DNA of 32,084 nucleotides. It comes from an uncultured Chromatium sp. (GTDB taxonomy: Bacteria; Pseudomonadota; Gammaproteobacteria; Chromatiales; Chromatiaceae). The notes under the pieces were generated by a model, which worked only from the letters and a program-made list of their open reading frames with translations, ran no database searches and was not told where the DNA came from. A program made the translations under genes and the position numbers. Location of the stretch: positions 1-32,084 of the forward strand of contig CAIUAY010000236.1 of assembly GCA_903897335.1 (NCBI GenBank), given 5' to 3'. Below, piece by piece: positions 15,466 to 30,319 of this stretch (positions within the stretch are counted from its first letter, which is position 1; every line of letters begins with the position of its first letter).

Positions 15466-15481
15466 GATGACGCTTTACCTG

Positions 15482-16057: not shown

Positions 16058-16993
16058 TCAGTCAAAGTTGATTCGCTCCTTCTCGATCACCAAAGGGCGT
16101 CGCAGTACTTGCGTGTGAATCGAGCCAATATATTCTCCTAAAATACCCAAAAAAACAAGTTGAACTGCGCCAATAAAAAACATGCCGATTACCAATGGTG
16201 CTGTCCCAACCTGAAAGCTATTCCAATATAATAATTTATAAATCAAGTACCCAAATCCAAACAAAAAGCTAAATGCTGCGACTCCGAGTCCAATAAATGT
16301 TGCTAGCCTCAGTGGAACTTTAGAGTGGTTGGTAATTCCAAGCATTCCCATTTCCCAAAGAGTGTAGAAATTGTTTTTTGTAAATCCGCGCTTTCGTGCG
16401 GGTTGAATGAATGGTATCAGCGCACGATCATATCCAAGGTCACAGATTAAACCACGAAAGTAGGGATAAGGATCATTGATCTTACGGATATCTTCGATCA
16501 CCTGCCGGTCGTATAAACCAAATCCGGTAGCATTCTCTACTAGCTCAATTTCGGAGAGATGATTGATACTATTGTAGTAAAACTTTCTGGCTAGGAAAAA
16601 AATTGGAGATTCTTCAGAGTTTGTCTTTTGCGCAAGAACTATTTTGTAATTTTCACGCCATTTTTTCACGAACTGAGGAATCATCTCTGGAGGGTCTTGA
16701 AGGTCAGAGACAAGAAGAATAACTGCTTCTCCTTTTGCCTGAAAGAATGCATGGTAACCTGATCGAATTTGGCCAAAATTTCTGTTATTAACAATAATCT
16801 TCACTCGCTTGTCATTAGCAGCAATGTTTTTGAGAATTGCAACTGTTTTATCTGTCGAGGCATTGTCAATAAATATTAGTTCAAACGTATACTCTCGAAG
16901 CTCTTCTGCAAATATCTTACAAATTCGATCATATAATTCATATACGTTACCTTCTTCATTGTAGCAACCCGTAACAACACTCAGAAAGGTCAT
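16058..16993 (-). CDS. Glycosyltransferase family 2, GtrB/DPM1-like polyprenyl-phosphate glycosyltransferase
   Basis: This enzyme transfers a sugar from a nucleotide donor to polyprenyl phosphate at the cytoplasmic face of the inner membrane. The 311 residues show the GT2 fold: VVTGCYNEEGN at the N-terminus, FIDNASTDKT (41-50) and the SDLQDPP metal motif (96-102). Two membrane helices follow near 233-258 and 266-290, the classic GtrB/ArnC layout. The donor sugar is unknown; it could be glucose or the product of the upstream island. Its base composition is visibly more AT-rich than the flanks, suggesting a separate origin. It lies 9 bases after the FkbM gene and 69 bases before gtrA. Confidence 0.88.
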   Translation of the reverse strand: MTFLSVVTGCYNEEGNVYELYDRICKIFAEELREYTFELIFIDNASTDKTVAILKNIAANDKRVKIIVNNRNFGQIRSGYHAFFQAKGEAVILLVSDLQDPPEMIPQFVKKWRENYKIVLAQKTNSEESPIFFLARKFYYNSINHLSEIELVENATGFGLYDRQVIEDIRKINDPYPYFRGLICDLGYDRALIPFIQPARKRGFTKNNFYTLWEMGMLGITNHSKVPLRLATFIGLGVAAFSFLFGFGYLIYKLLYWNSFQVGTAPLVIGMFFIGAVQLVFLGILGEYIGSIHTQVLRRPLVIEKERINFD

Positions 16994-17002
16994 TTTAGCT
17001 CT

Positions 17003-18136
17003 CTACTGTTTTTTCAAAAAAAAAATAATCGTATCATCAAAGCAATCGCTATAGTGAGCAACGTGAAAGTCGAAATTAGTCCTGACATAGCCGGCATTTT
17101 CAAGAAAGTCGGGGATTTGAACCAGATCATCAGGTCGGTGATATGCCGCAATAGCAAGGTCAGGGCCAGTTTTCAAAATACGCCGACATCCCTCTAATGC
17201 TCGTATCTCTGCGCCCTCAATATCCATCTTTATAAGATCAACACGCTCGTGAACGCCTTCATCGATCGGACTAGCATCCAGCTCGCCATCATCCGCCTCA
17301 GAAACGGAAATCATCCCGCCTCTAACCTCAGAAAAATGAAGGCGACATTTATGGGACCAAGCCGCATGAGGCATGATCTGAATCCCATTTTCATAGAATC
17401 TCGCGACGTTCTTGATCGAATCGAATAAGGAAATGTTCGCTTCCACTGCAATTCCACGGTTGACCGATAGCCTATGTTGAGCTTGCAGTAACGTGTCGCC
17501 ATCATATGCGCCTACATCGAGAAAGGTTGCATAGTTCCGTTGTGAATGGTGTTCAGGCACGTCGAACCACATATCCGTATTTTTATTCTTACTGGGAATG
17601 AGGTCATGCGGGTCAAGCGACAGTCTAAAGCGCAAGATATTCGTAAGAGTTTCTCGCGATTCCGGGTGAATTGATATATAAATTTCATAAATCGCTTCCA
17701 TATTGCAAGAAATCCAGATAGAAAAATCTCGCGCCTTGTTTGCTAGATGTGCGACATCAAATAGATACGCCGCCTCTTGATAGAAAACATGATTATTTTG
17801 CACAAGAGCGGCCTGCTCCAATTGCGCTTGGCAGGCTCCGAGAATCACCCCATATTCGGTTTGGCGAAGCTCGTCCAAATAACTTAGGGTTTGGAAGCCA
17901 TCCTTCGCAGCCAGATCTCTTGCCTTAGGACTAGAATCATAGACCGTGACCTTGATATCTGAGCCACTTGCAATCTGCCAGGCTAACGTCCTGCCTTTGC
18001 CGCCGTAGCCAAAGAGATAAAAGCGATTGGCTGCTACCAGCTTCTCTAGGGTGTCGAGTCTCTTATGGAAGCGGTCTTGGGCAAAAACCAGAGTGTTCTC
18101 GAACTCATCGAAAGACAAGAACTTTGCAGATACCAT
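17003..18136 (-). CDS. FkbM-family methyltransferase with an N-terminal Rossmann-like domain
   Basis: This 377-residue protein has two parts. Residues about 35-110 hold a nucleotide-binding-like segment (FGYGGKGRT at 42-50, then VYDSSPKA). Residues about 200-377 are an FkbM SAM-dependent methyltransferase with motif I DVGAYDGD (207-214), VEAN (231-234) and KMDIEGAE (303-310). FkbM enzymes usually O-methylate sugars or polyketides, so it likely caps or modifies the glycan made here; the target is inferred. GAGG lies 8 bases before the ATG. It begins after a 302-base gap from the SDR genes, so it may have its own promoter, and it runs directly into the glycosyltransferase gene. Confidence 0.82.
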   Translation of the reverse strand: MVSAKFLSFDEFENTLVFAQDRFHKRLDTLEKLVAANRFYLFGYGGKGRTLAWQIASGSDIKVTVYDSSPKARDLAAKDGFQTLSYLDELRQTEYGVILGACQAQLEQAALVQNNHVFYQEAAYLFDVAHLANKARDFSIWISCNMEAIYEIYISIHPESRETLTNILRFRLSLDPHDLIPSKNKNTDMWFDVPEHHSQRNYATFLDVGAYDGDTLLQAQHRLSVNRGIAVEANISLFDSIKNVARFYENGIQIMPHAAWSHKCRLHFSEVRGGMISVSEADDGELDASPIDEGVHERVDLIKMDIEGAEIRALEGCRRILKTGPDLAIAAYHRPDDLVQIPDFLENAGYVRTNFDFHVAHYSDCFDDTIIFFLKKQ

Positions 18137-18438: not shown

Positions 18439-19275
18439 CTACCAAACGGAACGCCCGCCATCCATGACGATATTCTGGCCGGTCATATAGGCGGAAGCGT
18501 CAGAACAGAGGAACTGGACGGCTGCCCGATATTCGCTAGCTTGAGCCATTCGCTTGAGCGGTATGAGCGAGGTTAGCCGCTGCACGAATTCATCGCCTTG
18601 ACCATTGAATACGCCGCCCGGGGATAACGCATTCGATCTAACGTTCTTATCCGCCCAGTAGGTCGCTAGGTAGCGATTGAGCCCAAGAATGCCTGTCTTG
18701 ATGACTGAATAGGTAACCGGTTTAACGGGTTGACGATCGTTAGACAATCCATCCTGTCGATAGATACGTTGATCTGGGGCAAAAACTGAAAGATCGGAAG
18801 CAATATTTAGAATGACACCGCCACCAGCGGCCGCCATTTTTGACCCGAATACCTTCGAGCACAAGAATGCGCCCGTCAGGCCGACCTCCAACTGGAAATG
18901 CCACTGTTCCAACGGAAAATGCTCAAACCGAGAGTTTTCTACCAACCCATCGGAATGGACTTTAGGGTCGATTGCCGCGTTGTTAACGAGAATATGAATT
19001 GTGCCGACCTCCCGGGAAAGCCGTTCGGCGAGGGCTCGAACGCTAGATTCCTGGGACACGTCTATCAATCCTGCGAGTGCCTTTCCGGCATAACCGCACC
19101 GATTTACCTCAGAAGCTGCGGACTGGGCCGTACCCTCATTGATGTCAGCGAGAACAACCGTCGCTCCCGCTTCCGCAAGGGCATGGCCGTGCTCCACGCC
19201 GAGCAAACCACCACCACCCGTAACAACAGCGGTGCGACCAGTTAGATCGAAAGCTTGCAGCATGACGCGTGTCAT
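18439..19275 (-). CDS. SDR-family NAD(P)-dependent oxidoreductase (third SDR of the island)
   Basis: This classical short-chain dehydrogenase/reductase has 278 residues. The cofactor motif TGGGGLLG is at 19-26, NNAA at 98-101, catalytic Ser at 160 and YSVIK at 189-193, so Tyr and Lys are intact. An insert of about 15 residues precedes the catalytic Tyr (around APDQRIYRQDGLSND), which is longer than usual and may shape the substrate pocket. It ends in the family-typical IVMDGGRSVW. The open frame extends up to 19455, but I chose ATG 19275 because it overlaps the upstream SDR stop as ATGA and homology begins just after it. A role in ketone/alcohol conversion on the island's sugar is inferred. 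Confidence 0.87.
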   Translation of the reverse strand: MTRVMLQAFDLTGRTAVVTGGGGLLGVEHGHALAEAGATVVLADINEGTAQSAASEVNRCGYAGKALAGLIDVSQESSVRALAERLSREVGTIHILVNNAAIDPKVHSDGLVENSRFEHFPLEQWHFQLEVGLTGAFLCSKVFGSKMAAAGGGVILNIASDLSVFAPDQRIYRQDGLSNDRQPVKPVTYSVIKTGILGLNRYLATYWADKNVRSNALSPGGVFNGQGDEFVQRLTSLIPLKRMAQASEYRAAVQFLCSDASAYMTGQNIVMDGGRSVW

Positions 19276-20024
19276 GATTGTATTTGGCCCCCATCGACGA
19301 CGAATATTTCTCCGGTCACGAAGCTTGACCGAGGCGAAGCGAGAAATGCAACGCAGTTTGAAATCTCCTCCGGAGAGCCGAACCTCCCAAGCGAGACTTC
19401 TCGTCTTAGCATCTCCTCCACTCGCGCAGGATCCTCTAAAATCTTTTGCTCCCATGTCGAACCGGGGAAATTGACGTTACCTGGAGCCACGGCATTAATG
19501 CGAATGCCGCGCTTCGCGAGCGGTCGCGCTGCACCACGCACATAGCTGTTCAGCGCCGCCTTTGCTGCCGCGTAGGCAAGAGGACACCCTAATGCTTCCA
19601 GTCCGCAAATCGACGAGATGCATACGATGGCACCTTTGCTTTTCTCCAGGAGTGGAATGGCGGCACGGATAACAAATACGGCCGAGAGCAAATTGAGTCG
19701 CAGCATCCTTTCCCAATCAGAAACGGTCTCTTCTATCGCAGGCAGTGACTGACCGTTGCCGACGTTGCAGACCAGGATATCGAGCTTACCAAATTTCGCT
19801 TCAATCTGGCTGACAAGGCTTTTCGCCCCAGTCTCCGTCGATACGTCCGCAGACAGCGCCGCCAACGCCCCGATAGAAGTAGCTGCCGCCTGAAGACGCT
19901 CAGGATCCCGCGCATTGATTACGACGTCGCAACCTTCATCAGTCATTGTCCGGGCAACTGCCTTACCAATACCAGATGAAGCACCGGTGACCAAGGCCAA
20001 CGACCCGTGGAATTTCAGGTCCAA
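19272..20024 (-). CDS. SDR-family oxidoreductase (second SDR of the island)
   Basis: This classical SDR has 250 residues, with cofactor motif TGASSGIG (13-20), a NNAG equivalent written CNVGNG, catalytic Ser near 137 and YAAAK (151-155). It ends FVVDGGQIQS. The start codon is TTG at 20024: GGAG sits 6 bases before it, and no ATG gives the complete first beta strand. It resembles FabG-type reductases in general shape, but its place between a sugar isomerase and another SDR argues for a carbohydrate substrate. It is 9 bases from the upstream isomerase and overlaps the next SDR by 4. Confidence 0.87.
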   Translation of the reverse strand: MDLKFHGSLALVTGASSGIGKAVARTMTDEGCDVVINARDPERLQAAATSIGALAALSADVSTETGAKSLVSQIEAKFGKLDILVCNVGNGQSLPAIEETVSDWERMLRLNLLSAVFVIRAAIPLLEKSKGAIVCISSICGLEALGCPLAYAAAKAALNSYVRGAARPLAKRGIRINAVAPGNVNFPGSTWEQKILEDPARVEEMLRREVSLGRFGSPEEISNCVAFLASPRSSFVTGEIFVVDGGQIQS

Positions 20025-20033
20025 GAGGATCTC

Positions 20034-20870
20034 CTATAAGCCGCTCGCGGCGATCCAGCCACGCACCATGTCCCGATAACGGACAAGCACATCCAAGTGG
20101 CCGCCGTCAGTCGCCCGGGCGGTTTGAAGGATGAAATCGCCGCGATACCCCGAATGCGCCAATTCATTGAAAATGATCGAAAAATTTGCGGCGCCGGTTC
20201 TTAGAGGAACCGTGCCACCACCGACAAGGCGATCCTTGACGTGAACATTCCGGATCCGATGACCATATGCACGAATTTCGGTTCGAGGATCAAACCCTAG
20301 CGACGCACTATTGCCGATATCGTAGTTGATTCCAAATGATGACTGAGGAAAAACCGCTATCAGTTCCTCCAGGCAGTCAGGTTCGAAATCCGATTCGAAC
20401 AAAATTACAATCCCATGTTCGCTGAGCCAGCGTGTATGCGGTAGCAACCCATCGAGTAGTGATTCTCGCTGAGCATCGTCTTCCAGACGCCCGTTGTCCA
20501 CTAGCGGCACTACAACATAACTGATACCGATCGTAGCGCAAGCTTTCAGAATGCATTCGAAATCCAGAAGCAAAGAGCGGCGTTGAGTCTCCGAAGCCTT
20601 CCAAAATGGGACCTGCATGAAGCAGTCACCAGTCAGTGACAAGACATCGATACCAGAAGATCTTTTTAATTCGCGTATGCGGTGTTGCCCGGATTCGAGC
20701 AGCAGAGGATTCTCGTGCAACCTATCCGCATCCAAAGTCCACTCAATGAGTTCGAAATTAGATTTGGCACCAACAAAGAATTCTGTTTCCCAAAATCGCC
20801 ATGGAAAAGCTTGGATCTTGCCATCGATCTGAGGCGATAATCTTCCTTGCATAAACCCGACGCGATTCAT
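20034..20870 (-). CDS. Sugar phosphate isomerase/epimerase family protein (xylose-isomerase-like TIM barrel)
   Basis: This 278-residue TIM-barrel protein is of the AP-endonuclease-2/xylose-isomerase-like superfamily. Metal-site candidates are FESDFE (Glu), INYDIGNS (Asp) and VHVKDRL (His), in the expected order along the barrel. Family members are isomerases, epimerases, dehydratases or endonucleases; sugar context favours isomerase or epimerase. The start is the ATG at 20870, whose A is also the last base of the upstream SDR stop (TGATG), giving tight coupling. The open frame reaches 20891 upstream, but those seven codons overlap the SDR and lack support. A second domain of the same superfamily is fused to the NeuB-like protein in this operon. 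Confidence 0.83.
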   Translation of the reverse strand: MNRVGFMQGRLSPQIDGKIQAFPWRFWETEFFVGAKSNFELIEWTLDADRLHENPLLLESGQHRIRELKRSSGIDVLSLTGDCFMQVPFWKASETQRRSLLLDFECILKACATIGISYVVVPLVDNGRLEDDAQRESLLDGLLPHTRWLSEHGIVILFESDFEPDCLEELIAVFPQSSFGINYDIGNSASLGFDPRTEIRAYGHRIRNVHVKDRLVGGGTVPLRTGAANFSIIFNELAHSGYRGDFILQTARATDGGHLDVLVRYRDMVRGWIAASGL

Positions 20871-21619
20871 CAGAGCCCCTTGGCGGTCCAACCGCCATCA
20901 ACAAATAGATCCTGTCCTGTAACGTAGCTTGAGGCATCGGACACGAGAAATATAGCCGCACCAACCAGATCGCCTGGCTCACCCCACCGCCCTAAAATAG
21001 TACGTGCGGTTCGAGCTACGCGTTGGTCAACATTTCCATAGCTCGAGGCGGTCATCTCTGTTCGAATATAGCCAGGCGCCAAGGCGTTAACCCGAATCCC
21101 GCGTGGCCCCATGTCGAGTGCGAGTGCCTTCGTCAACTGCCGCAAGCCACCTTTTGCGGCCACATAAGCAGGGTTACCAGGAAAGCCAAGAACCGAATTA
21201 ATGCTTGTGACAAACACAATTGAAGATGGCCCACGCATCCACTGCGCAGCAATAATCGCCGTCTGATACGCAGACGTGAGATTTACCGAGATCGTCTGGG
21301 CAAAATCATCGGGACTTTGGATCGAAGATGCCGATGGGAACGTTACTCCCGCCGAGAATACGAAGGCATCGATCCGTTTTGAAATCCCGGCTGCCCTCAG
21401 ACATAGCCCCTCAAAACCGGCACCATCCGTCACATCACACCGGCAGTAGGCTACACCATCGGTCGGTTCTAGGGGGACCATTGAACGGCCGCACGAATAG
21501 ACGGACGCCCCAGCACCGGCCAAACCGGCAGCGATCGCGGCACCGATCCCCCTCGATGCACCCGCGACAACTACCGTTCGTCCGGCAAGGCTGAAAAGAG
21601 ACAGTGGATCGGGTGTCAT
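20870..21619 (-). CDS. SDR-family oxidoreductase (first SDR of the island)
   Basis: This classical SDR has 249 residues, with cofactor motif AGASRGIG (19-26), FSAGV in place of NNAG, catalytic Ser in TSINS and YVAAK (152-156), and a C-terminal LFVDGGWTAKGL. The substrate is not evident. It starts 83 bases after the ThDP-enzyme gene, the widest gap within the nine-gene block, and shares one base with the next gene. Three SDRs in one block imply at least two or three separate redox steps on the product. Confidence 0.87.
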   Translation of the reverse strand: MTPDPLSLFSLAGRTVVVAGASRGIGAAIAAGLAGAGASVYSCGRSMVPLEPTDGVAYCRCDVTDGAGFEGLCLRAAGISKRIDAFVFSAGVTFPSASSIQSPDDFAQTISVNLTSAYQTAIIAAQWMRGPSSIVFVTSINSVLGFPGNPAYVAAKGGLRQLTKALALDMGPRGIRVNALAPGYIRTEMTASSYGNVDQRVARTARTILGRWGEPGDLVGAAIFLVSDASSYVTGQDLFVDGGWTAKGL

Positions 21620-21702
21620 AGCTATTGCCGTGAGAACTGCTTATCACCACCACAAGTCAGTTTGTACGATATACCTAAATTTCATTGTCGGTTTTACCTC
21701 TG

Positions 21703-23469
21703 TCAACCTGGAGTCTTCCAGGAAACGTCTTCGATATCTGAAGAATAGGGAGTTCCATCCGGATGAAATTTCGTTACTATGGCTGGACCTCGATAATCGT
21801 CGTCCTCCATATTGATGTCGACGATGAGTCGACTCCTGCCTGCATCAATCTCACCAAGAACATCCTTGAGCTCCAGACAAGTCATCACTCTCACATAGTC
21901 AAGCCCAAATGTCTCCGCCAATGCAAAAATATCCGGTGAACCTAGGCCAGACGTTACGGAAGCCCCGAATTCCTTGCCAAACGCTCTGCTTTGCGATCTG
22001 CTGATCGAGATATAGCCCGCGTTGTTGAATACGATCAAAGCGAGCTTGATGTCGGAATTTGCATTAATGGTGAGCAGTTCCTGGACGTTGAGCATGATTC
22101 CACCATCACCTTCAAGACCGATGACCGACCCAATGTTCGCGGCAGCCGCTCCAATGGCTGCTGGAAGCCCCATGCCCATCGAGCCTAAACTATGTCCTGC
22201 ATAAAAAAGACGATTACCGTGCGTGGGGGCGAAAAACCTCGCGAAGCCTTCAATCGCATAACCTGATCCGGTCGCTACAAGTGTTTTACCCGTGACGTTG
22301 TCCGCAAAGATTTTCGCCACATTTCTCGCGTTCAGAGAGCAACTATCGCCAAAGGATCTTGCTTCGAGTACCGCGTCCTCATCCCTCAATTTAGCGCAAC
22401 GGACGAGCCAATCACTGTGCCGTAAATCCAAGTCATTCTGGCCGACAAGCCAATCGACAGTGGGCCGAAGGTTGCTGAGAACCAAGTGCGTACCCGGAGC
22501 CTTTGAGAGCTTTTCCAGTTCGGCAGGATCGATGTCAACGACGATGCGCACCGCGCGCTTGCCAAAGAGGTCAGGATTGAATCCTGTGGTCAACAGATCA
22601 ATTCGAGCCCCGAGAAACAATATGAGGTCCGCATTTTGGATAATTCGGTTGCTATGAGTAGGCGCGAGCCCACCGGGACTGCCGAAATGCAGATGATGTT
22701 GTGCGTCCAATAGATCGGTACTTGGCCATGTCGTCAAAACCGGCGCACCCAGATGCTCTACTAAATTCAGGAGTTGCTCGCGCGAAATCCCTGCGATTCG
22801 ATTCCCATTGCCAAGAAAAAGTACAGGGCGCTTCGCATTTCGACAGGCATTTTTAATCATAGCCTGATGATCGCCAGCAAGAGGGACGGCAATTTTGGTC
22901 AGCGACGCTATTTTTTCGAGTATGGCAAGAATACGCTCTTCGCCAGCGACTACCTTCAATGGTTGTGCATCCAGTGGAACTTCAATAAATACTGGCCCTT
23001 TTCTCGCTGATATGGCTGACGCAAAAAGCTCTGCCAGTCGCTCGTCATCGATATTCGTCGGGCTATATCTTAGAGCGTCCTTGACAATCGGCCTCACCAG
23101 ATCAAGCGACGGAACTTCCTGTGCTCCGTAGCTTCGAACACCGTATCGGTTGATATCAGCAGATTTGACTTGGCCTGCTATCACAATGATCGGAACGGAA
23201 TCATGATAGGCAGAAGCAAGCGCAGTCATGACGTTTGTGACGCCGGGGCCAGAAGTCACAACTGCCAATCCAGGCACCAAGTATTCGTGCATTTTTGCAT
23301 AGCCATCCGCAGCGGACACGCATGCCTGCTCGTGGTTGCAATAAATTACTCTGAGGCTAGACATACCGACTGCACAATTGATATGCGTCGCCATTCCTCC
23401 GGTAAGTGAGAAGGCAGCGTCTGTACCCAAGCGCTGGACAATAGCTATCAGGAATTCGGCTACATTCAT
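21703..23469 (-). CDS. Thiamine diphosphate-dependent enzyme, acetolactate-synthase-like
   Basis: This 588-residue protein has the three-domain layout of the acetohydroxyacid synthase/pyruvate decarboxylase superfamily. The catalytic Glu is E47 in YCNHEQA. The N-terminal pyrimidine domain continues with VTSGPGVTNVMTALASAY. The ThDP/Mg motif starts at EGDGG (453-457) and closes at NNAGY (482-486). The housekeeping small subunit is not nearby. Within sugar loci, relatives of this family (for example YerE in yersiniose synthesis) ligate two-carbon units onto keto-sugars, or decarboxylate 2-keto acids; either would fit beside a NeuB-like gene. The start overlaps the NeuB-fusion stop as ATGA. The specific reaction is not known. 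Confidence 0.88.
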   Translation of the reverse strand: MNVAEFLIAIVQRLGTDAAFSLTGGMATHINCAVGMSSLRVIYCNHEQACVSAADGYAKMHEYLVPGLAVVTSGPGVTNVMTALASAYHDSVPIIVIAGQVKSADINRYGVRSYGAQEVPSLDLVRPIVKDALRYSPTNIDDERLAELFASAISARKGPVFIEVPLDAQPLKVVAGEERILAILEKIASLTKIAVPLAGDHQAMIKNACRNAKRPVLFLGNGNRIAGISREQLLNLVEHLGAPVLTTWPSTDLLDAQHHLHFGSPGGLAPTHSNRIIQNADLILFLGARIDLLTTGFNPDLFGKRAVRIVVDIDPAELEKLSKAPGTHLVLSNLRPTVDWLVGQNDLDLRHSDWLVRCAKLRDEDAVLEARSFGDSCSLNARNVAKIFADNVTGKTLVATGSGYAIEGFARFFAPTHGNRLFYAGHSLGSMGMGLPAAIGAAAANIGSVIGLEGDGGIMLNVQELLTINANSDIKLALIVFNNAGYISISRSQSRAFGKEFGASVTSGLGSPDIFALAETFGLDYVRVMTCLELKDVLGEIDAGRSRLIVDINMEDDDYRGPAIVTKFHPDGTPYSSDIEDVSWKTPG

Positions 23470-25394
23470 GAGTTCGACTCAATTTTGGCAAGAAATGATA
23501 ATGCATCCCAAAATCCAGCGCCATGATCCTTATGACCCTGCCACACTTCGGGAATAAAACCGATGTTCGGGTATCGGCAGATCTGACGCCAGGACGCAGG
23601 CCAGTCGATATCCCCCGTGCCCATCAAAACACCTTCGCCATTCGTGCCTTTGGCATCGGCTACATGCAGGTGCGCGGTGCGCGGTAGTAGTCGCGCCAGC
23701 GCATCCTGGAAATCAAGACCAAAATAGCTACAGGTCATTTGTAAATGAGACAGATCCAGACAGATTCGCATGTCTAATTCAAGCGTTTTGGCGGCGAGTT
23801 CATCAGGCATCATGAAGATGTTCTGATGTCGTTGCCCCCCGAAGTGCCAAGGAAATGGTGCCATATTCTGTGGAATCAATTCAGTTCGGCCAAAATCAAT
23901 CTGTTCGCAGGCCATGTGAAACCGTTCGTACAGGATTGTTCGCAAAGCGGGCGCGAAAGGTTGATCAGCGGAAAATCCGCCGACGTTTGCGACAATCAGC
24001 AATGAATCGGCTTGTGGAAAAAACTCTCCGATGACCTCCGCTGCCTCAACAACACGTTTTAAATTTTCGATGGAGCGACGACGATAGGCGTCATCTTCAG
24101 CCGCTAAATCGAGCAATTCGCTGTGCTCGAAAAGCTCAGGCGCGTGGACGACAAGGCGCGAGCAGGCTGTCGGTTCCAGATACGGTCTAGGGTTGATGCC
24201 AAGATCACGATAGGACAGATGAAATTCAAACAGATCCGGGTTGATCCACGCACTGTATTGCCTGAAATCATGATAACGAACCGGGACGCCCCATTTCACG
24301 GGAAACTGATAAACGCGATCAATGATCGTTTGATCTTTGAGGTCGCTTTCAAACAGAAAATCTCCACGCTGAATGAAGCGCACTGCTTTCCTGCCGATCA
24401 GTTCGTTGAGTCTGTAGGGCGGAAGTCCCTGGCCAGGACTCGCTACACGCAATGCCGTTTCGCTGAAGCATTCGCCTGGTGCGATATTGCGGGCAGCAAC
24501 CACGCTTTTTCCGAGATTTTCACGATTCAACAGTTCGCCTTGGCTGACATGCCGTTCTGACCCTCCCCACGGCAGCGCTTTCTCGACCTGGCGAATGCCG
24601 TCAACCAGAGCCCGGAATTCGATGGGATCGAGACTCGCCAAATGATCAGGGCCTTCCATGTTGCGGTCGAGGGTGATGTGACGTTCGATGATTTTCGCCC
24701 CCAATGCTACGGCGGCAATCGTGATCGCGGTGCCACGTTCATGCCCAGAATAGCCAATGATGGGATGCAATTCGGCTAGTCGCGCCAGATAGCCGAGCTG
24801 GATGTCTGTTTCCGGTGCAGGGTAAGTACTGTTGCAATGAAGCAGAGCAAATGGAATCCCTAACATCTTGAGTTGGGAGACGGCACGGATGATTTCGTGC
24901 TCGAAGGACATCCCGGTCGAAAGGATCAGCGGCTTGCCCAAGGAAGCAGCTTTCTTGATGAGATAGGGGTTGCACAGATCCGCTGAGGCAATTTTTAGCG
25001 CCGCCACGTCAAACGTGGCCAATACGTCAACGCTCGGCTCATCCCACGGTGTGCAAAGATAGACGATTCCACGATCCTTGCAGTACTGCCTGATCACCCG
25101 GTGCTCTGCCAAAGTCAGCTCGACTTTATTCAGAAGATCTTGAATATACTCAACCCCCAGATCCTCGGCGAGCGATTCATCAGCACGAAAGCGGTAAAGC
25201 GCCTCGCGATTCCTCATCTGGAATTTAACGCAATTGGCACCTATCTCGATTGCGGCATCGACTAATTTTTTGGCTAATTTGATCGAGCCATTATGGTTAT
25301 TGCCAATTTCAGCAATGATAAATACGCTTGAGCCACTAATGGTCAATCCATCGATAGCGAATGCGTTGAGATTTATATCAATTTTGTTCGCCAT
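23466..25394 (-). CDS. NeuB-like ulosonic acid synthase fused to SAF domain and C-terminal sugar-isomerase TIM barrel
   Basis: This 642-residue fusion has three parts. Residues 20-270 are a NeuB/PseI-type synthase that would condense phosphoenolpyruvate with an aldose: AEIGNNHNG (28-36), KFQ (57-59), STGMS, HCNSTYPAP, GYSGHERG and ERHITLDRNMEGPDH (237-251) are all present. Residues about 295-352 are the SAF/antifreeze-like domain (VVAARNIAPG, SPGQGLPPYRL). Residues about 362-642 are a xylose-isomerase-like TIM barrel with candidate metal residues in CLDLSH, HLHVADA and IPEVWQGHKD. Standard NeuB stops near residue 350. AAAGG lies 9 bases before the ATG, which overlaps the upstream kinase by 22 bases. 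Substrate and product are unknown. Confidence 0.9.
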   Translation of the reverse strand: MANKIDINLNAFAIDGLTISGSSVFIIAEIGNNHNGSIKLAKKLVDAAIEIGANCVKFQMRNREALYRFRADESLAEDLGVEYIQDLLNKVELTLAEHRVIRQYCKDRGIVYLCTPWDEPSVDVLATFDVAALKIASADLCNPYLIKKAASLGKPLILSTGMSFEHEIIRAVSQLKMLGIPFALLHCNSTYPAPETDIQLGYLARLAELHPIIGYSGHERGTAITIAAVALGAKIIERHITLDRNMEGPDHLASLDPIEFRALVDGIRQVEKALPWGGSERHVSQGELLNRENLGKSVVAARNIAPGECFSETALRVASPGQGLPPYRLNELIGRKAVRFIQRGDFLFESDLKDQTIIDRVYQFPVKWGVPVRYHDFRQYSAWINPDLFEFHLSYRDLGINPRPYLEPTACSRLVVHAPELFEHSELLDLAAEDDAYRRRSIENLKRVVEAAEVIGEFFPQADSLLIVANVGGFSADQPFAPALRTILYERFHMACEQIDFGRTELIPQNMAPFPWHFGGQRHQNIFMMPDELAAKTLELDMRICLDLSHLQMTCSYFGLDFQDALARLLPRTAHLHVADAKGTNGEGVLMGTGDIDWPASWRQICRYPNIGFIPEVWQGHKDHGAGFWDALSFLAKIESNS

Positions 25395-26749
25395 GACACA
25401 ATACCTTTTGACTCGAAGCGGAATGCGGAAAGTTGGCAGCCAGCATTTTTAAGGCTGTCAGTGACCGCCTTGCGGAAGCGGGGCTGCACGAAAAACAGAA
25501 AAAATCCGCCACCTCCCGCACCAAGCAATTTTCCACCAAGTGCGCCTGCGCTCATAGCCGCAGAGTAAATGTCATCGACGCGATGATTGCTCACAGACGA
25601 TGAAAGTCCCCGTTTCAATTGCCATCCAGCATGTAAGGATCGCCCGAAATCCGCCAATTCACCCCGAATCAGATGATGATGCATCTTCCGGCATAGGTTC
25701 ACCGCATCCTTAAGCTCGGTCGCTTTTTGACCGCTGTCGAAATCGCGGCGCTGTGCCTGGTGGATCGTGCCCGATTCATGAGGCATTTGCGTGTCACACA
25801 GAATGAGACATTCTTCCAATTCATTGACGATGGATTCTTCCAGGCGGATAGGATGCACGAGATTACGTGTCCCATCGAATTCGATCAGATTGAATCCACC
25901 GAAAGCCGATGCATACTGATCCTGCCATCCTCCCGCCACACCAAAACACAACCGTTCGGCCTGAAAACAGACTTCAGCAATTTCGTAGGTCGTCCAGCGA
26001 TCAAGGCGTAATTCGTTAAATGCCGCAACGATAGCCGTTGTGACCGCAGATGATCCGCCTAGTCCAGAGCCAACCGGGAAATCGGAGCGCACGTACAGGT
26101 TGAAGCCGGATAATGGACGGATGACAGAAACCGTCGCTGCAAGCAGGCTGTTACAATCCAAACGGACTTGCAGATCAGAGATCGATTTATAGTGCTGAAC
26201 GGTATCGAGATCTTCCGAATGAATATGAATTTCAGTATCGGTTCTTGGGATCAGCGTAACGTGACAGAACAGTGAGATTGTCGTGCTCAGCACGGCACCT
26301 GGATGATCGACGAAAAAATATGTTAGGTCAGAACCGCCCCCACCAAAACTAACCCGAACTGGCGCACGCGACCGGACAAGAATAGGCGCTTCGGGCACGG
26401 TCGGAAGACTGTCAGGCGTAATGACATCGAGAAGCTGCCCGTCGGTGTCAATTCGGGGAATGGCATTGAATCCGAGGTCGAGCAGCTTAAGCAGGTCTTC
26501 ACGCAGCGCGTCGGCAGGTGCGGAGCGAAAGTTGCGGTTCATGCAACGGCGAACGCTATCGCTGGTTTGACCGCCCTCCAGCAGAAAACGTCTGATGTCG
26601 CCATTGGTCACGACGCCAACCAAATGGTTCGCTGTATCCAGCACAAATGCAATCTGGATGCGACCTGACTCAAGCCGGTTAATCGCCTGAAGAACGGATT
26701 CTTCATCCAGCAGACACATTTCCCTGATTCTGTGGTTCAGGATCGTCAC
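25373..26749 (-). CDS. CBS-domain pair fused to a GHMP-family sugar kinase (HddA-like)
   Basis: Residues about 1-115 form a CBS pair (VGVVTNGDIRRFLLEGG in the first repeat, AIPRIDTDGQLLDVI in the second), a nucleotide-sensing module. Residues 120-458 are a GHMP kinase closest in feel to D-glycero-D-manno-heptose-7-phosphate kinases: RSRAPVRVSFGGGGSD (127-142), the ATP loop PVGSGLGGSSA (225-235) and GGKLLGAGGGG (405-415). It would phosphorylate a sugar or sugar phosphate at the anomeric position. The start is GTG 26749, overlapping the nucleotidyltransferase stop as GTGA. The fused CBS pair suggests allosteric control by an adenine nucleotide or by the pathway product. No GmhA or GmhB is in the window, so the heptose assignment is only by family. 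Confidence 0.87.
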   Translation of the reverse strand: MTILNHRIREMCLLDEESVLQAINRLESGRIQIAFVLDTANHLVGVVTNGDIRRFLLEGGQTSDSVRRCMNRNFRSAPADALREDLLKLLDLGFNAIPRIDTDGQLLDVITPDSLPTVPEAPILVRSRAPVRVSFGGGGSDLTYFFVDHPGAVLSTTISLFCHVTLIPRTDTEIHIHSEDLDTVQHYKSISDLQVRLDCNSLLAATVSVIRPLSGFNLYVRSDFPVGSGLGGSSAVTTAIVAAFNELRLDRWTTYEIAEVCFQAERLCFGVAGGWQDQYASAFGGFNLIEFDGTRNLVHPIRLEESIVNELEECLILCDTQMPHESGTIHQAQRRDFDSGQKATELKDAVNLCRKMHHHLIRGELADFGRSLHAGWQLKRGLSSSVSNHRVDDIYSAAMSAGALGGKLLGAGGGGFFLFFVQPRFRKAVTDSLKNAGCQLSAFRFESKGIVSWRTKLI

Positions 26750-27441
26750 AACATGATCTCCGCTAATTCTAATTTGGCTCGCGCATAATCTTCTGGTATG
26801 CCAATATCGATAAACTTTCCTCGGCTCACAAAAAATTGAATCGATGATCGAGTCACGGCTTTTGCCAGAAAATCATTTTCCAGAGAAAATGATTCTTTCA
26901 TTGGAAATTCCGACTCAATGCCTCTTGGAAAAACGTAAACCCCAGCATTGATAAGACCACGACCGGAAACGCCTTTTTCCTCAAATCTGATGATCCAATC
27001 TCCTTCGGTGTCAATGCGCCCGTATCGCATGGTATCTGGCACATCCCTGGAAACAATGATCGGAAGCCGGTTTTTCTGCCATTGCGTTTCAATCTCATCA
27101 ACTTCAAGATCAAGGTAAGTATCGCCATTTAATATGAATACATGATCTGATCGACACCGCGCAAGCGCCTGACGCAACGCGCCTCCTGTGCCAAGAGGCT
27201 TTCGTTCGATTTCGTAAACTAAATCCATGCCAGCGAAGCAATCACCAAAGTGATTAACCACGCATTCAGCTCTGTATCCGAGAGAGAGAATCACGCGGCG
27301 ACACTGTTTTTGCGCGAGGGTGACAAGGAGCATTTCGAGAAACGGACGACCGGAAATCGGCGCCATGGGTTTAGGTAAATCAGGCACGATTTCTCGTAGT
27401 CGCGTTCCGAATCCGCCTGCAAGAATGATCGCTTCAATCAT
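26746..27441 (-). CDS. Sugar-1-phosphate nucleotidyltransferase (HddC/RmlA-like)
   Basis: This 231-residue nucleotidyltransferase activates a sugar-1-phosphate to an NDP-sugar. Motifs are LAGGFGTRLRE (7-17), LPKPMAPISGRPFLE (22-36) and LNGDTYLD. The short single-domain form resembles the guanylyltransferase HddC more than two-domain enzymes, but base and sugar specificity cannot be read by eye. I chose ATG 27441: it overlaps the upstream epimerase stop as ATGA and begins exactly at the conserved strand, while the longer open frame to 27606 adds unrelated residues. The next gene, the CBS-kinase, would supply its substrate. Confidence 0.9.
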   Translation of the reverse strand: MIEAIILAGGFGTRLREIVPDLPKPMAPISGRPFLEMLLVTLAQKQCRRVILSLGYRAECVVNHFGDCFAGMDLVYEIERKPLGTGGALRQALARCRSDHVFILNGDTYLDLEVDEIETQWQKNRLPIIVSRDVPDTMRYGRIDTEGDWIIRFEEKGVSGRGLINAGVYVFPRGIESEFPMKESFSLENDFLAKAVTRSSIQFFVSRGKFIDIGIPEDYARAKLELAEIML

Positions 27442-28475
27442 GCCACACCACTCCCAGTAACACGCGCCCAGCGCAGTGTGCGCTGCAATGCCTGGTCGAG
27501 CGACGTCCAGACATCTAGGCCCAATTCGTCGCGTGCCCGTGCAATTGATGGAACATAACGTTGCGGCGGTTGCGCGGATGGCGTGCCGTGAATCCGTATC
27601 GGACATCCACCTGCTGCGTCTGCGACCGCATGAGCCAGTTCAGCAATGCTCACCGCACGATCCGAACCAACGTTATAGGGGCGATGTGGCTGGCCGTCGA
27701 GCAGAATCGTCAGCAGCCATACCACAAGGTCTGATGCATAGAGATAAGAACGAAGCGGTGTGCCATCGCCGCGAATCTCGATGGGCTGATGATGCTGTGC
27801 ATCGCGGATAAAGTTACCCACGGCAAAATGGACATCCAGCGGTAAAAACGCGCCAACGAATGCGAAGCCGCGCGCGATTTTCACCGGCAGGCCAGACGCC
27901 GCGCACAGGAATTCAGCCGCACGTTTGCCTTCGCCATAAGCAGAGGTTGGCGAGTTGGGATCGGGAGCGCCCGGATAGTTTTCGGTCAGGCGTTTTGTCT
28001 GCGCAGGCTGTGCGCCATAAACCGCGCCCGAACTTGTCAGCAGCATGGCGGTACATCCGGCACGATCTGCAAATTCCAGGACACGGCGCGTCCCGCTGAT
28101 GATGGTGTCGAACATCAATAAGGGTTGTGTGCGGTTGAGCTGTTCGCTGGCGGCGGTCGCGGCATGGATCACGAACGGAAAGCTGCCGAGTGGCGCAGTG
28201 AAATCACGCACGTCACCACGACACCAGTCGAGCGCCGGATGCGCCGCCAGTGCCCCGGCATGGTGTGCAAACACATCGGGTGCGCGGCTCAGTACCGTGA
28301 TGCGCAAGCGCAGATCGAGTCGGTCATTTGCCCAGGTTAAGGCTTCGAGCAGCCAGCGACCGAAAAAACCCGTGCCGCCAGTGATGAAAAGCCGCTCGCC
28401 AGCAAGTCGACGCAGCAGCAGCTCGGCACGACACAGGATGTCGTTGAGGTCGTCGGCGAGTGGGTTAGGCGGCAT
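27438..28475 (-). CDS. NAD-dependent epimerase/dehydratase (extended SDR)
   Basis: This 345-residue extended SDR acts on nucleotide sugars. The cofactor motif GGTGFFG is at 33-39, followed by HAATAAS, SSGAVYG (148-154) and the catalytic YGEGK (180-184). C-terminal features (RGDGTPLRSYLYASDLV, YNVGSDRAVSI) match the RmlB/GalE/Gmd class. Epimerase, 4,6-dehydratase or reductase activity cannot be separated without alignment. It is the first gene of the minus-strand island. Upstream lies a REP-like palindromic region, so the island promoter should sit between about 28480 and 28600, but no clear -35/-10 pair is visible. Composition is GC-rich, like the chromosome. Confidence 0.88.
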   Translation of the reverse strand: MPPNPLADDLNDILCRAELLLRRLAGERLFITGGTGFFGRWLLEALTWANDRLDLRLRITVLSRAPDVFAHHAGALAAHPALDWCRGDVRDFTAPLGSFPFVIHAATAASEQLNRTQPLLMFDTIISGTRRVLEFADRAGCTAMLLTSSGAVYGAQPAQTKRLTENYPGAPDPNSPTSAYGEGKRAAEFLCAASGLPVKIARGFAFVGAFLPLDVHFAVGNFIRDAQHHQPIEIRGDGTPLRSYLYASDLVVWLLTILLDGQPHRPYNVGSDRAVSIAELAHAVADAAGGCPIRIHGTPSAQPPQRYVPSIARARDELGLDVWTSLDQALQRTLRWARVTGSGVA

Positions 28476-28528
28476 CGATTCTTTGCCTGTACCGAAAAAT
28501 TCGTTTGGCGACGAACCCGCGTCGTAGA

Positions 28529-28554
28529 TTGGGTTGCCGCTGTTGGCAGCCCAA
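28529..28554. repeat. REP-like palindromic unit 1
   Basis: Arms TTGGGTTGCC and GGCAGCCCAA pair with one G-T wobble around a 6-base loop. The TTGGGTT core is the kind found in dispersed palindromic repeats of GC-rich gammaproteobacteria. It sits 54 bases upstream of the epimerase start. Confidence 0.5.
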
Positions 28555-28589
28555 CATTTGCGTCAAACATCCTGCTTCAGCGGTGACGT

Positions 28590-28610
28590 TGGGTTGATTG
28601 CATCAACCCA
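28590..28610. repeat. REP-like palindromic unit 2
   Basis: Perfect 8-base arms TGGGTTGA / TCAACCCA surround a 5-base loop. It shares the TGGGTTG core with unit 1, 36 bases away. Together they form a pair like those of bacterial interspersed palindromic elements. The gene fragment downstream begins right at its right edge. Confidence 0.5.
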
Positions 28611-28625
28611 TCTACGCGCTTCGGT

Positions 28626-28787
28626 CTACCCAATGGCACGGGCAAAGTCGTGATCAGAATCAACTACAACGAGAACATTCGCCAAGGCGGGAACCGCTCG
28701 CGGATCACGGCCAATTTTATCCGCACGGGCGGGATTATTGAGCCGCACAATTTAGAAGAAAGCCGATATGTCAAGTTGGCGCGGTAA
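28626..28787 (+). pseudogene. C-terminal remnant of an unidentified gene
   Basis: Read in the frame ending at TAA 28785-28787, this gives about 53 residues of protein-like sequence (for example TGKVVIRINYNENIRQGG and SRITANFIRTGGIIEPHN) with a balanced, soluble composition. The frame has no proper start: upstream it reads into the REP-like palindrome and a stop at 28584-28586. I interpret it as the tail of a gene whose 5' part was lost where the palindromic element now lies. The family is not recognised. It could instead be chance. Confidence 0.4.
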
Positions 28788-28863
28788 GAGTCGGTGCCGG
28801 ATTCGAACCGGATCATACGCGCGGTATCCGCTCGCAACCATTCCCATTGGAAACAACCGACTC
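28788..28863 (-). other. Degenerate tRNA-like element (possible tRNA remnant or attachment site)
   Basis: Read on the minus strand, this 76-base segment has a 7-base closed acceptor-like stem (GAGTCGG / CCGACTC, extendable to 10 perfect pairs from 28786 to 28865) and a T-arm CCGG-TTCGAAT-CCGG. It also has a GG in the D-loop position, and an anticodon-like arm with GAT in the loop, 4 of 5 stem pairs and G instead of U33. The D stem does not pair well, and no CCA is encoded. A functional tRNA is therefore unlikely. A decayed tRNA gene, perhaps carried by or marking insertion of the neighbouring phage DNA, fits better. Confidence 0.4.
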
Positions 28864-28881
28864 TTGCGAAGAGCGTAGCAC

Positions 28882-29067
28882 ATGACCATCCCCGACACCG
28901 ACCCCTGTCACGGCTGCCGCGAGCTGATCTGTCCGGCTACGGGTGCGCCACGCTGCGCCCACGAGACCGAGTATGGGCAACCCGGCTGCATTCGCCGTGC
29001 CGCTTCACCTGCACCAGCGCCCCGCCAAGACCGCCGCCAGACCAGCCCCGGACACCACCAACCATGA
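28882..29067 (+). CDS. Small Cys-rich ORF, probably phage-derived
   Basis: This 61-residue ORF has five cysteines in the first 36 residues (CHGCRELICPATGAPRC then GC), spaced like a small zinc-binding knuckle, followed by a Pro/Arg-rich tail. Its stop overlaps the ATG of the phage gpG-like gene as ATGA, the strongest argument that it is real. No family is recognised. The ribosome binding site (GAAGAG region) is weak. Confidence 0.45.
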   Translation: MTIPDTDPCHGCRELICPATGAPRCAHETEYGQPGCIRRAASPAPAPRQDRRQTSPGHHQP

Positions 29068-29522
29068 GCGGCGCTCGCGTCACCATCACCGTTGACGATG
29101 CCGCCGTGCGTGCCCAGTTGGAGCGGCTGTTGGAACAGGTTCAGCGCCCGACCGACGCCCTGCGCGAGATCGGCGAAGTGCTCCAGCAATCCACCCAACG
29201 GCGCTTTGCGACCGAGACTGCACCCGATGGGTCGCGCTGGGCGCCCAACTCGCCGGTCACGCTGACCCGCAAAACCAGCCGCCAGATCCTCACTGAGCAC
29301 GGCTTTCTCGGCGACACCATCCGCTATCAACTGACCGCAGATCGGCAGGGCGTGGCGGTAGGCTCGAACCGGGTCTATGCGGCAATGCAGCAGTTCGGTG
29401 GAACCAAAGCCGACCACCCGCACCTGTGGGGCGACATTCCAGCCCGTCAGTTTCTAGGCGTGTCGGCGGCGGATCGGACGACTATTCTGGATATTTTCAC
29501 CGACTATCTGGGATCAGCGTGA
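29064..29522 (+). CDS. Phage virion morphogenesis protein (Mu gpG / Phage_tail_S-like)
   Basis: This 152-residue protein resembles the Mu gpG-type virion morphogenesis family. It starts with a beta strand (ARVTITVDD), then a helix with TDALREIGEVLQQSTQRRF, the characteristic PDGSRWAPNSPVT, an LTEHGFLGDTIRYQ segment, and a C-terminal HLWGDIPARQFLGVS. In Mu-like phages this protein acts in tail or head completion. The ATG at 29064 overlaps the preceding small ORF; a longer open frame to 28794 reads through the tRNA-like element and is not supported. No other structural phage genes are present, so it is an isolated remnant of a prophage. It is convergent with the next gene, overlapping 9 bases. 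Confidence 0.75.
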   Translation: MSGARVTITVDDAAVRAQLERLLEQVQRPTDALREIGEVLQQSTQRRFATETAPDGSRWAPNSPVTLTRKTSRQILTEHGFLGDTIRYQLTADRQGVAVGSNRVYAAMQQFGGTKADHPHLWGDIPARQFLGVSAADRTTILDIFTDYLGSA

Positions 29523-29894
29523 GGCAATCCGTGCCAAATGACACGCAAAACCCGCCGTGTGACGCCCCGCTCCCTCTGGGAGAGGGGTTGGGGTGAGGGA
29601 TCGCCCGTGTCCAGGCGTTAAAAAACCCCGCGACCGGGCGGGCGCGGGGTTGGCGTGGGGCGGGTGACGCTCAGGCGCAGACGCGCAGCGGTTCCGGCGT
29701 TGCTGGATCAGGTGCTCTAGGGCGGTGCGCTGCACGGTGCCGAGGAGGTGCAACAGGGTCGAGAGCCGCTCGCGCTCGGTCTCGTGGATGACCACGCCCG
29801 ACAGCAGGTCATCAATGGCGGCGTAGGCGTCGCTGATGATCCCCAGCTCGTCGAGAATGTTGTTGCCGTGCGTTAACTCAATGGTGAGTTGCAT
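29514..29894 (-). CDS. Small hypothetical protein, probably phage-associated; 3' part disturbed by repeat and terminator
   Basis: GGAG lies 8 bases before the ATG at 29894. The first about 75 residues are helical and protein-like (LDELGIISDAYAAIDDLL, then a helix containing LSTLLHLLGTVQRTALEHL). From about residue 76 the frame reads through an intrinsic terminator and a REP-like element, giving a low-complexity tail up to the stop at 29514. I think the true ancestral protein ended near residue 75-80 and the tail is a read-through product of inserted repeat DNA. No family is recognised; its neighbours suggest phage accessory origin. Confidence 0.5.
   Translation of the reverse strand: MQLTIELTHGNNILDELGIISDAYAAIDDLLSGVVIHETERERLSTLLHLLGTVQRTALEHLIQQRRNRCASAPERHPPHANPAPARSRGFLTPGHGRSLTPTPLPEGAGRHTAGFACHLARIASR
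29565..29600. repeat. REP-like GC-rich palindrome with a CCCTCACCCCAACCCC-type flank
   Basis: Arms CCCCGCTCCC (29565-29574) and GGGAGAGGGG (29578-29587) pair with one mismatch around TCT. The adjoining sequence (minus strand CCCTCACCCCAACCCC) is typical of a dispersed repeat seen in many GC-rich proteobacterial genomes. It lies inside the open frame of the small minus-strand gene. Confidence 0.5.
29620..29651 (-). terminator. Intrinsic terminator on the minus strand
   Basis: Perfect 9-base arms AACCCCGCG / CGCGGGGTT with a 10-base loop are followed on the minus strand by a run of six T. This is the best intrinsic terminator in the window. It would stop transcription of the small minus-strand gene before its stop codon at 29514. 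Confidence 0.75.
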
Positions 29895-30002
29895 CGTGGA
29901 TCTCCGTGGTCGTGCGGACGGGGCAGTAGTCTGTGGCCGAGGCCGGTTGAGCGTCAATGCGCCGTCTCGGTGAAGAGGTCGAGCTGACTGGCGCGAGCGG
30001 CA

Positions 30003-30306: not shown

Positions 30307-30319
30307 CTGACCCTGCGTC

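Follow-up and report, generated by a model that had tools for sequence, protein, structure and literature searches.

A nine-gene operon of an uncultured Chromatium with a NeuB fusion and a thiamine diphosphate enzyme: a candidate pathway for a long-branched 3,6-dideoxy sugar

The stretch of DNA analysed here (the window; 32,084 nucleotides of contig CAIUAY010000236.1, assembly GCA_903897335.1, from an uncultured Chromatium sp.) carries nine linked genes on its minus strand at positions 18439-28475, which follow each other 5' to 3' in the order g9-g8-g7-g6-g5-g4-g3-g2-g1. This arrangement had been claimed in an earlier note made from the sequence alone, and both the open reading frames (ORFs) and the domain matches bear it out, with the starts of g1 and g8 corrected. 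From our point of view, there is about an even chance that this operon builds a 3,6-dideoxy sugar with a long branch at C-4 that is destined for a surface glycan, and that the product of a NeuB-family synthase serves as the acyl donor of a thiamine diphosphate (ThDP) enzyme.

The first four junctions are overlaps of 4, 4, 22 and 4 bases (g9/g8, g8/g7, g7/g6 and g6/g5), a gap of 83 bases separates g5 from g4, g4 and g3 overlap by 22 bases (by 1 with the ATG at 20870 as start of g3), and the last two gaps measure 9 and 8 bases. Two of the mechanically called ORFs are too long at their upstream end, reaching 27606 for g8 and 19455 for g1; the starts used here, 27441 (residue 56) for g8 and 19263 (residue 65) for g1, were chosen at the onset of homology.

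The gene g6 (23466..25394, 642 amino acids) encodes a NeuB-SAF-AP_endonuc_2 fusion. Its NeuB domain (Pfam PF03102, 251 bits, 1.4e-74) and SAF domain (PF08666, 39.5 bits, 8.7e-10) place it in the NeuB family, so that the earlier description of a NeuB-like locus holds, and both are joined to a xylose-isomerase-like triosephosphate isomerase (TIM) barrel (AP_endonuc_2, 2.1e-16). The protein stays under the family cut-offs of both NnaB (TIGR03569, 312.8 against 399.65 bits) and PseI (230.1 against 340.25 bits). NeuB enzymes require a free aldose, and their product is a 3-deoxy-2-keto acid bearing a 4-hydroxyl group. Judged by its domains, g6 is predicted to synthesise a 3-deoxy-2-ulosonic acid and to process the precursor through its fused domain. 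A model of the fused barrel (predicted local distance difference test, pLDDT, 91.7) aligns with the ketose 3-epimerase 2zvr (Z 22.4, root-mean-square deviation (rmsd) 3.1, 244 residues aligned) and with endonuclease IV 5zhz (Z 21.1, rmsd 2.9, 236 aligned), and in Foldseek the top rank goes to endonuclease IV, with UlaE next; the modelled fold thus appears similarly near to both classes, which it does not clearly separate. Domain searches find no aminotransferase, no nucleoside diphosphate (NDP)-sugar hydrolase (NeuC/PseG/LegG) and no NeuA among the nine genes, as the earlier note had stated, the search for the first two being limited to these genes. Since NeuB needs a free aldose and the nine genes lack a NeuC-type hydrolase, one could speculate that the fused barrel is a metal-dependent NDP-sugar hydrolase.

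Upstream of the fusion, g7 (25373..26749, 458 amino acids) encodes an HddA-like sugar kinase in which a CBS domain (5e-10) accompanies the kinase domain (GHMP_kinases_N, 8.8e-19), and g8 (26746..27441, 231 amino acids) encodes an HddC-like sugar-1-phosphate nucleotidyltransferase (NTP_transferase, 4.5e-23). The proposed likeness to heptose activation is supported by these HddA- and HddC-like matches, both of which lie below the family cut-offs. The operon opens with g9 (27438..28475, 345 amino acids), an extended short-chain dehydrogenase/reductase (SDR) of the NAD-dependent epimerase/dehydratase family (Epimerase PF01370, 1.8e-30) and, by its family, a candidate NDP-sugar reductase or epimerase.

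The fusion is followed by g5 (21703..23469, 588 amino acids), a three-domain ThDP enzyme with the TPP_enzyme domains N, M and C and, by pattern search, the cofactor motif GDG...NN. It had been described as acetolactate-synthase-like, a label that probably needs changing, as among solved structures g5 matches JanthE (8rph, 219.7 bits) better than any acetolactate synthase (at most 186.6 bits). In one relative (L051) the ThDP enzyme, of the Pseudomonas type, scores 365.8 bits on JanthE and 257.1 bits on the best acetolactate synthase of known structure. We therefore regard g5 as a predicted carboligase of the YerE/JanthE type, which by analogy would transfer the decarboxylated chain of an ulosonic acid to a cytidine diphosphate (CDP)-4-keto sugar. 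According to PMC12247030 (partial text), YerE moves activated acetaldehyde onto CDP-3,6-dideoxy-4-keto-glucose, and ErwE, acting on the same type of acceptor, does not use pyruvate and favours 2-keto acids that carry further functional groups, for example 4-hydroxy-2-oxobutanoate, -pentanoate and -hexanoate. JanthE is likewise a YerE-like carboligase that takes long 2-keto acids and, with benzaldehyde, also 4-hydroxy-2-oxovalerate; its physiological substrates are given as unidentified (PMC12188165, partial text).

The remaining four genes comprise three classical SDRs, namely g4 (20870..21619, 249 amino acids, adh_short_C2 1e-53), g2 (19272..20024, 250 amino acids, TTG start, adh_short_C2 3.7e-59) and g1 (18439..19263, 274 amino acids, adh_short_C2 6.7e-41), and a UlaE-like AP_endonuc_2 TIM barrel, g3 (20034..20891), of 285 amino acids from its TTG start or 278 from the ATG at 20870. 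The UlaE fold of g3 is evident both from the profile match to UlaE 3cqh (4.2e-24) and from its model (pLDDT 95.6), which VIA-align superimposes on 3cqi with Z 29.4 and rmsd 2.6 over 264 aligned residues. UlaE-type epimerases carry a catalytic, metal-binding Glu pair on strands 5 and 8. In g3 the strand-5 residue, Glu159, is invariant, while Gln249, invariant in 35 of 35 rows, aligns with the strand-8 Glu, and because of this replacement plain 3-epimerase chemistry looks doubtful for g3. Hence, of the two TIM-barrel isomerases claimed before, the fold stands for both, and the isomerase part is less certain for each, given the Gln in g3 and the ambiguity of the fused barrel with endonuclease IV.

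To place the operon among its relatives, the alignment of the fused TIM domain was scanned against one genome per species (84,980 species), which gave 363 relatives. The locus set consists of the window and the best 80 of these (81 loci, rich in Pseudomonas), and gene presence in it was in part called by hand-set bit-score thresholds. A g7-type kinase occurs in 74 of the 81 loci, and in all 74 the NeuB-TIM gene adjoins it on the same strand. The grouping of the genes is beyond chance, because the same neighbours recur in other genomes; the co-conservation of NeuB-TIM fusion, ThDP enzyme and CBS-GHMP kinase, by which the earlier note had proposed to check its reading, is found across the relatives' loci. 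All nine genes are present in four loci (the window, Paraburkholderia fungorum L035, Burkholderia sp. L059 and Pseudomonas sp. L069), and the eight genes without g9 are found together in eight. The closest g6, g7 and g8 in the set belong to Thiorhodococcus mannitoliphagus (82, 80 and 71% identity). Among 54 near relatives, G010 was the only genome besides that of the window to give a whole-length NeuB-TIM match, and the fused TIM domain occurs in 4 of 369 genomes of the class, a number too small to correlate it with other genes.

A heptose precursor is pointed to by gene content, since GmhA-like genes stand in 31 and GmhB-like genes in 7 of the 81 loci, and since one locus (L020) has GmhA, nucleotidyltransferase, GmhB, kinase and NeuB-TIM in consecutive order, followed by one further gene and then the ThDP gene.

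On a tree of the NeuB-TIM proteins, a quick, unrooted tree with long-branch warnings, the loci fall into two sides with full support on the long branch: side A (51 rows, including the window) and side B (30 loci plus the fusions of Ensifer and G010). The ThDP gene is found in 47 of the 51 side-A loci and in none of the 30 on side B. Counted by genome, side A reaches 49 of 51, as two of the loci without it (L062 and L065) lie on short contigs, and a close ThDP relative turns up in another part of each genome (84 and 86% identical to that of L061). The gene g9 is found in 33/51 loci on side A and in 1/30 on side B. Genes of the g8 type (43/51 and 24/30), g4 type (8/51 and 4/30), g2 type (8/51 and 20/30) and g1 type (22/51 and 23/30) are shared, and since neither side of the tree is without parts of the g4-g3-g2-g1 module, this module probably tailors a part that is common to the products of both.

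In 14 side-A loci (L022, L028, L030, L031, L036, L037, L038, L040, L041, L042, L044, L055, L057 and L060), a TIM barrel, a Gfo/Idh/MocA dehydrogenase (IolG-like) and an SDR replace the full module; these form another oxidise-epimerise-reduce set. We also considered a link of such SDR and Gfo/Idh genes to PtmA and PtmF of the legionaminic acid (Leg) pathway, which may fit by description only; in Plesiomonas, PtmF is a 326-residue oxidoreductase and PtmA a 254-residue protein (PMC4481668, partial text).

The genes that would activate an ulosonic acid show the reverse pattern. A NeuA- or SpsF-like cytidine monophosphate (CMP)-transferase gene is present in 0 of the 47 loci with the ThDP gene and in 25 of the 34 without it, the nine others being three side-A loci of at most 14.5 kb (L054, L062 and L065) and six of side B. 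In 24 of the 30 side-B loci a CMP-sugar-synthetase-like gene is found. These loci (L066-L096 except L069; hosts from Bacteroidota, Chlorobium, Nitrospinales, SAR86 and others) have, with variants, the order nucleotidyltransferase, kinase, NeuB-TIM, GmhA, NeuA, aminotransferase, TIM barrel, SDR, SDR (e.g., L081:6302-17170 and L070:6868-17147). From their gene content they look like a pathway from heptose to a CMP-ulosonic acid, perhaps one of ten carbons. In the host of the window, a search with CTP_transf_3 gave a single full-length match, KdsB, and a weak match to GlmU, so that this genome has no obvious enzyme to turn the NeuB product into a CMP sugar. Beyond the best 80, six more loci (five fusions and, in L016, the CBS-NeuB part only) have a NeuA-like match in five cases and a ThDP match in none, a pattern that fits CMP-activation as the older state of the core.

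In Ensifer canadensis and in genome G010 a CBS domain is fused to the NeuB-TIM protein itself (CBS-NeuB-TIM; L013:13611-15965 and L015:2649-4898), and no GHMP kinase match was found in these two loci (stretches of 30 kb and 5 kb). The CBS regulatory domain thus seems to move between the kinase and the NeuB-TIM protein.

RfbF, RfbG and RfbH make CDP-4-keto-3,6-dideoxyglucose. Their genes lie upstream in many side-A loci, where representatives pass the cut-offs of the three families, and all three occur in 35 of the 47 loci with the ThDP gene. RfbH is found in 45 of the 49 side-A genomes that have the ThDP gene, in 38 of them within the locus (tblastn of at least 300 bits) and in 7 outside it (above the cut-off of the family); it was sought in the host and in 42 genomes that account for 43 loci in which RfbH was not in the locus, the locus was short or the ThDP gene was lacking. 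On side B it is found in 2 of 29 genomes, and as a baseline, 11 of the 369 genomes of the class, the host included, hold RfbH over the cut-off, and 15 do so at E 1e-100. Across the 54 loci of at least 18 kb the association of ThDP gene and RfbH gives a Fisher p of 3.6e-12, a value that overstates the evidence because the rows are related. The genome of the window's host encodes RfbH (728.9 bits), RfbG (483.7 bits) and RfbF (470.5 bits), all over their cut-offs, with RfbF and RfbH encoded at the end of contig C89, some 1.1 kb from each other, and RfbG on C246. As such, the host can probably make the acceptor although it is not encoded in the window.

With the enzyme classes and their co-occurrence as the starting point, we infer the donor, the precursor and the product along the following route. 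Going by their families, g7 and g8 would convert a sugar phosphate into an NDP-sugar, the sugar being probably a heptose by the model of HddA/HddC, and from this NDP-sugar the aldose would be released or reshaped, perhaps by the TIM domain fused to NeuB in place of the missing NeuC-type step, an idea drawn from its fold. The NeuB domain would then condense the aldose with phosphoenolpyruvate (PEP) to a 3-deoxy-2-ulosonic acid, i.e. a 4-hydroxy-2-keto acid. In analogy to YerE and ErwE, g5 would decarboxylate this acid and add the remaining chain to C-4 of CDP-4-keto-3,6-dideoxyglucose, supplied by RfbF, RfbG and RfbH from elsewhere in the genome. Finally, g9 may reduce the new ketone or epimerise the ring, and the optional g4-g3-g2-g1 set, with its SDRs and UlaE-like barrel, may oxidise, epimerise and reduce the polyol chain. 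The product would be a sugar of 14 carbons from a hexose-derived donor or of 15 carbons from a heptose-derived one, caryophyllose-like and with a 2'-deoxy branch. The branch of caryophyllose is a 1,3,4,5-tetrahydroxyhexyl group with an unsubstituted C-2' (PMC5706390, partial text), which is what the decarboxylative transfer of a 3-deoxy-2-ulosonic acid would be expected to leave. It is because the NeuB product corresponds to an ErwE-type donor and because the caryophyllose branch is 2'-deoxy that we tentatively assign the donor to NeuB, the acceptor to the Rfb enzymes and the joining step to g5.

In this scheme the ulosonic acid is less likely to be the final sugar than to be an intermediate that serves as acyl donor. 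The earlier guess of a deaminated, possibly branched or chain-extended ulosonic or higher-carbon sugar consequently retains its branched and extended direction and probably loses the ulosonic acid as end product, given the RfbF, RfbG and RfbH genes of the host. Two wider claims we put forward as a pair and tentatively, with a little less confidence than the basic proposal, namely that an enzyme of the sialic-acid-synthase family has been diverted to supply the acyl donor of a ThDP carboligase, so that one branched monosaccharide of 14 or 15 carbons arises from PEP, an aldose (which may be a heptose) and a CDP-4-keto-3,6-dideoxyhexose, and that the NeuB-TIM/kinase core serves CMP-activation in the loci of side B but decarboxylative grafting in those of side A. 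In open-licence PMC papers we found neither a description of this sugar pathway, which agrees with its having been taken as undescribed, nor a report of a NeuB product as donor of a ThDP enzyme.

A number of observations weigh against this proposal. Assays of these proteins were not found in the same literature. In NCBIfam, g7 reaches 236.7 bits for HddA at a cut-off of 600 and g8 193 bits for HddC at a cut-off of 300; the GmhA-like protein of the host lies below its family cut-offs (147.6 against 209.45), and its GmhB passes PRK08942 (225.1, cut-off 178) and fails TIGR00213 (93.8, cut-off 149.6). The lead of JanthE over a plant acetolactate synthase in the matches of g5 is only 33 bits, and g5 scores less, 159.3 bits, on 5ahk, which we take to be the YerE-like PpYerE. 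The Rfb genes of the host lie on two contigs other than that of the operon and are unlinked to it. RfbH was not found in four genomes with the ThDP gene, all of them metagenome-assembled genomes (L039, L045, L063 and L065), and the two side-B genomes that have it are L070 and L087; conversely, L054, also from a metagenome-assembled genome, has RfbH beside the kinase, and a search with an L058-type query only found no close ThDP relative there.

In loci of at least 18 kb, g1 is present in 19 of 35 with the ThDP gene and in 17 of 19 without it (p 0.014), and g3 in 19 of 35 and 15 of 19, respectively, so that both are not tied to the ThDP gene and are in fact commoner where it is lacking. The operon of the window is for this reason a mosaic of a core and an optional module, and the view of the nine genes as one set stands for the recurrent core and holds for the full nine in only four loci. 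Lastly, many side-A rows are close Pseudomonas, and the presence or absence of the ThDP gene amounts to two changes and two independent pairs (p 0.5 in a sign test that omits three short loci). The joint pattern of ThDP gene, RfbH and NeuA therefore rests on one deep split and on L052, and two pairs cannot reach significance.

Against this background, other readings have to be weighed, of which two sugars made by one cluster is the strongest, albeit in our view an unlikely one. RfbF, RfbG, RfbH, a ThDP enzyme and an SDR would suffice for yersiniose. The ThDP enzyme could hence use pyruvate and CDP-4-keto-3,6-dideoxyglucose for a yersiniose-like sugar with a short branch, and the NeuB-TIM protein, kinase and nucleotidyltransferase would make an independent ulosonic or heptose-derived sugar. 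As YerE itself takes pyruvate (PMC12247030, partial text), the donor need not come from NeuB, and since donors vary among YerE-like enzymes, homology leaves that of g5 unfixed. However, the lack of NeuA- and SpsF-like genes in all 47 loci with the ThDP gene and the host search that returned KdsB and a weak GlmU match speak against an independent ulosonic acid. Moreover, in 42 of the 47 loci the ThDP gene lies downstream of NeuB-TIM on the same strand within 1.6 kb. The side-A ThDP enzymes fall into two very divergent families (8 rows against 39; the tree holds 46 of the 47 proteins, the L049 fragment being assigned to the window's family by BLAST identity), which implies seven family changes on the best NeuB tree, as counted on quick trees with long-branch warnings and some weakly supported forks. 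The ThDP gene therefore seems to have been exchanged repeatedly while its slot stayed filled, which speaks for the proposal and against two unconnected pathways. The same holds for L052, a side-A locus of 20.8 kb without a ThDP gene, in which NeuA is present and whose genome lacks RfbH; the ThDP proteins of this genome share no more than 34% identity with either of the two queries and may be ordinary acetolactate synthases.

The genome of L062 (G065) holds a second JanthE-like ThDP gene (C32:8606-10390, 44% identical to the L061 query) near RfbH (C32:13804-15108), possibly indicating two branched sugars in one organism.

Improbable, though with a partial precedent, is a nonulosonic acid elaborated by the ThDP enzyme, in which a two-carbon unit would be added to the ulosonic acid or its NDP-sugar precursor and then reduced by the SDRs. 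In Shewanella, sfmA (NeuB domain), sfmB (ThDP enzyme) and sfmC (SDR) lie in one operon, and their deletion shifts the mass of flagellin (PMC3765264, partial text). Yet the loci with the ThDP gene lack the CMP-transferase normally needed for nonulosonic acid transfer, most of them hold RfbF, RfbG and RfbH, which this reading leaves without a role, and SfmA, reported in the same source as a protein of 290 amino acids, is too short for a NeuB-TIM fusion. Carbohydrate or inositol catabolism with an IolD-like ThDP enzyme and IolE- or IolI-like barrels, suggested by a weak IolE match of g3, an IolI structure from the PDB matching the g3 profile and the IolG-like gene of some relatives, is very improbable, as NeuB, the sugar kinase/nucleotidyltransferase pair and the RfbF, RfbG and RfbH neighbours are biosynthetic, IolD is outside the 25 best of the 54 families matched by g5, and the operon is followed by glycosyltransferase, GtrA-like and FkbM genes. 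A link to the inositol ring of bradyrhizose, prompted by its ten-carbon sugar and the IolE- and IolD-like folds, was also considered and not retained.

Those genes downstream of the operon, on the same strand at 13663-18136, encode an FkbM-type methyltransferase, a family-2 glycosyltransferase, a GtrA-like protein and a protein of 600 residues without Pfam match, and by sequence they are candidates for the transfer or decoration of the sugar. Further on, an ORF at 11912-13207 contains long Thr/Lys/Pro/Ala-rich repeats and has no Pfam match. Upstream of the operon, the segment 28794-31254 holds a Phage_tail_S (phage virion morphogenesis) gene together with one for an IS605 OrfB-type transposase, as would fit a mobile region. 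The G+C content is 0.527 in the operon and 0.486 in the downstream stretch (13660-18136), compared to 0.608 at 1-13200 and 0.62 at 28476-32084, a contrast that fits horizontal acquisition.

If the proposed decarboxylative grafting of a NeuB product is true, NeuB/PEP condensation and YerE-type ThDP branching would be united in a single pathway whose products rank among the largest known monosaccharides, and a source of the long hydroxylated donors of JanthE-like enzymes would be suggested. The signature of NeuB-TIM, ThDP enzyme and RfbH would further predict the type of surface sugar in Pseudomonas, Burkholderia, Paraburkholderia, Herbaspirillum and Thiorhodococcus.

Compared with known systems, the operon shares with the N-acetylneuraminic (Neu5Ac), pseudaminic (Pse) and Leg pathways a NeuB-family synthase with a SAF domain and differs from them in the lack of an aminotransferase, of NeuC/PseG/LegG and of NeuA among the nine genes, and in the position of g6 under the NnaB and PseI cut-offs. 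With the GmhA-HddA-GmhB-HddC pathway to GDP-D-glycero-D-manno-heptose it has in common the HddA-like g7 and the HddC-like g8, and in some relatives interleaved GmhA- and GmhB-like genes, whereas here both proteins score below the cut-offs and the kinase carries an extra CBS domain and is tied to NeuB. The sfmABCDE operon of Shewanella oneidensis likewise combines a NeuB domain, a ThDP enzyme and an SDR, but its five genes include neither a kinase nor a nucleotidyltransferase and instead a methyltransferase and an ATP-grasp protein besides the short SfmA of 290 residues, and it acts on flagellin (PMC3765264, partial text). Due to this partial precedent, the mere pairing of NeuB with a ThDP enzyme is not new; the new claim, which we infer, is a NeuB-derived donor for YerE-type branching. 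JanthE of Janthinobacterium sp. HH01 is the closest solved structure both to g5 and to the L051 enzyme, and it has a CDG motif (PMC12188165, partial text) where g5 has GDG. Overall, the pathways to yersiniose, erwiniose and caryophyllose resemble the proposed one in their YerE-like ThDP enzyme, the type predicted for g5, and in serving a surface glycan, and those to yersiniose and erwiniose also use the acceptor proposed here, CDP-4-keto-3,6-dideoxyglucose (PMC12247030, partial text), whereas in the present operon the ThDP gene is accompanied by genes for a nucleotidyltransferase, a CBS-GHMP kinase and the NeuB-TIM fusion.

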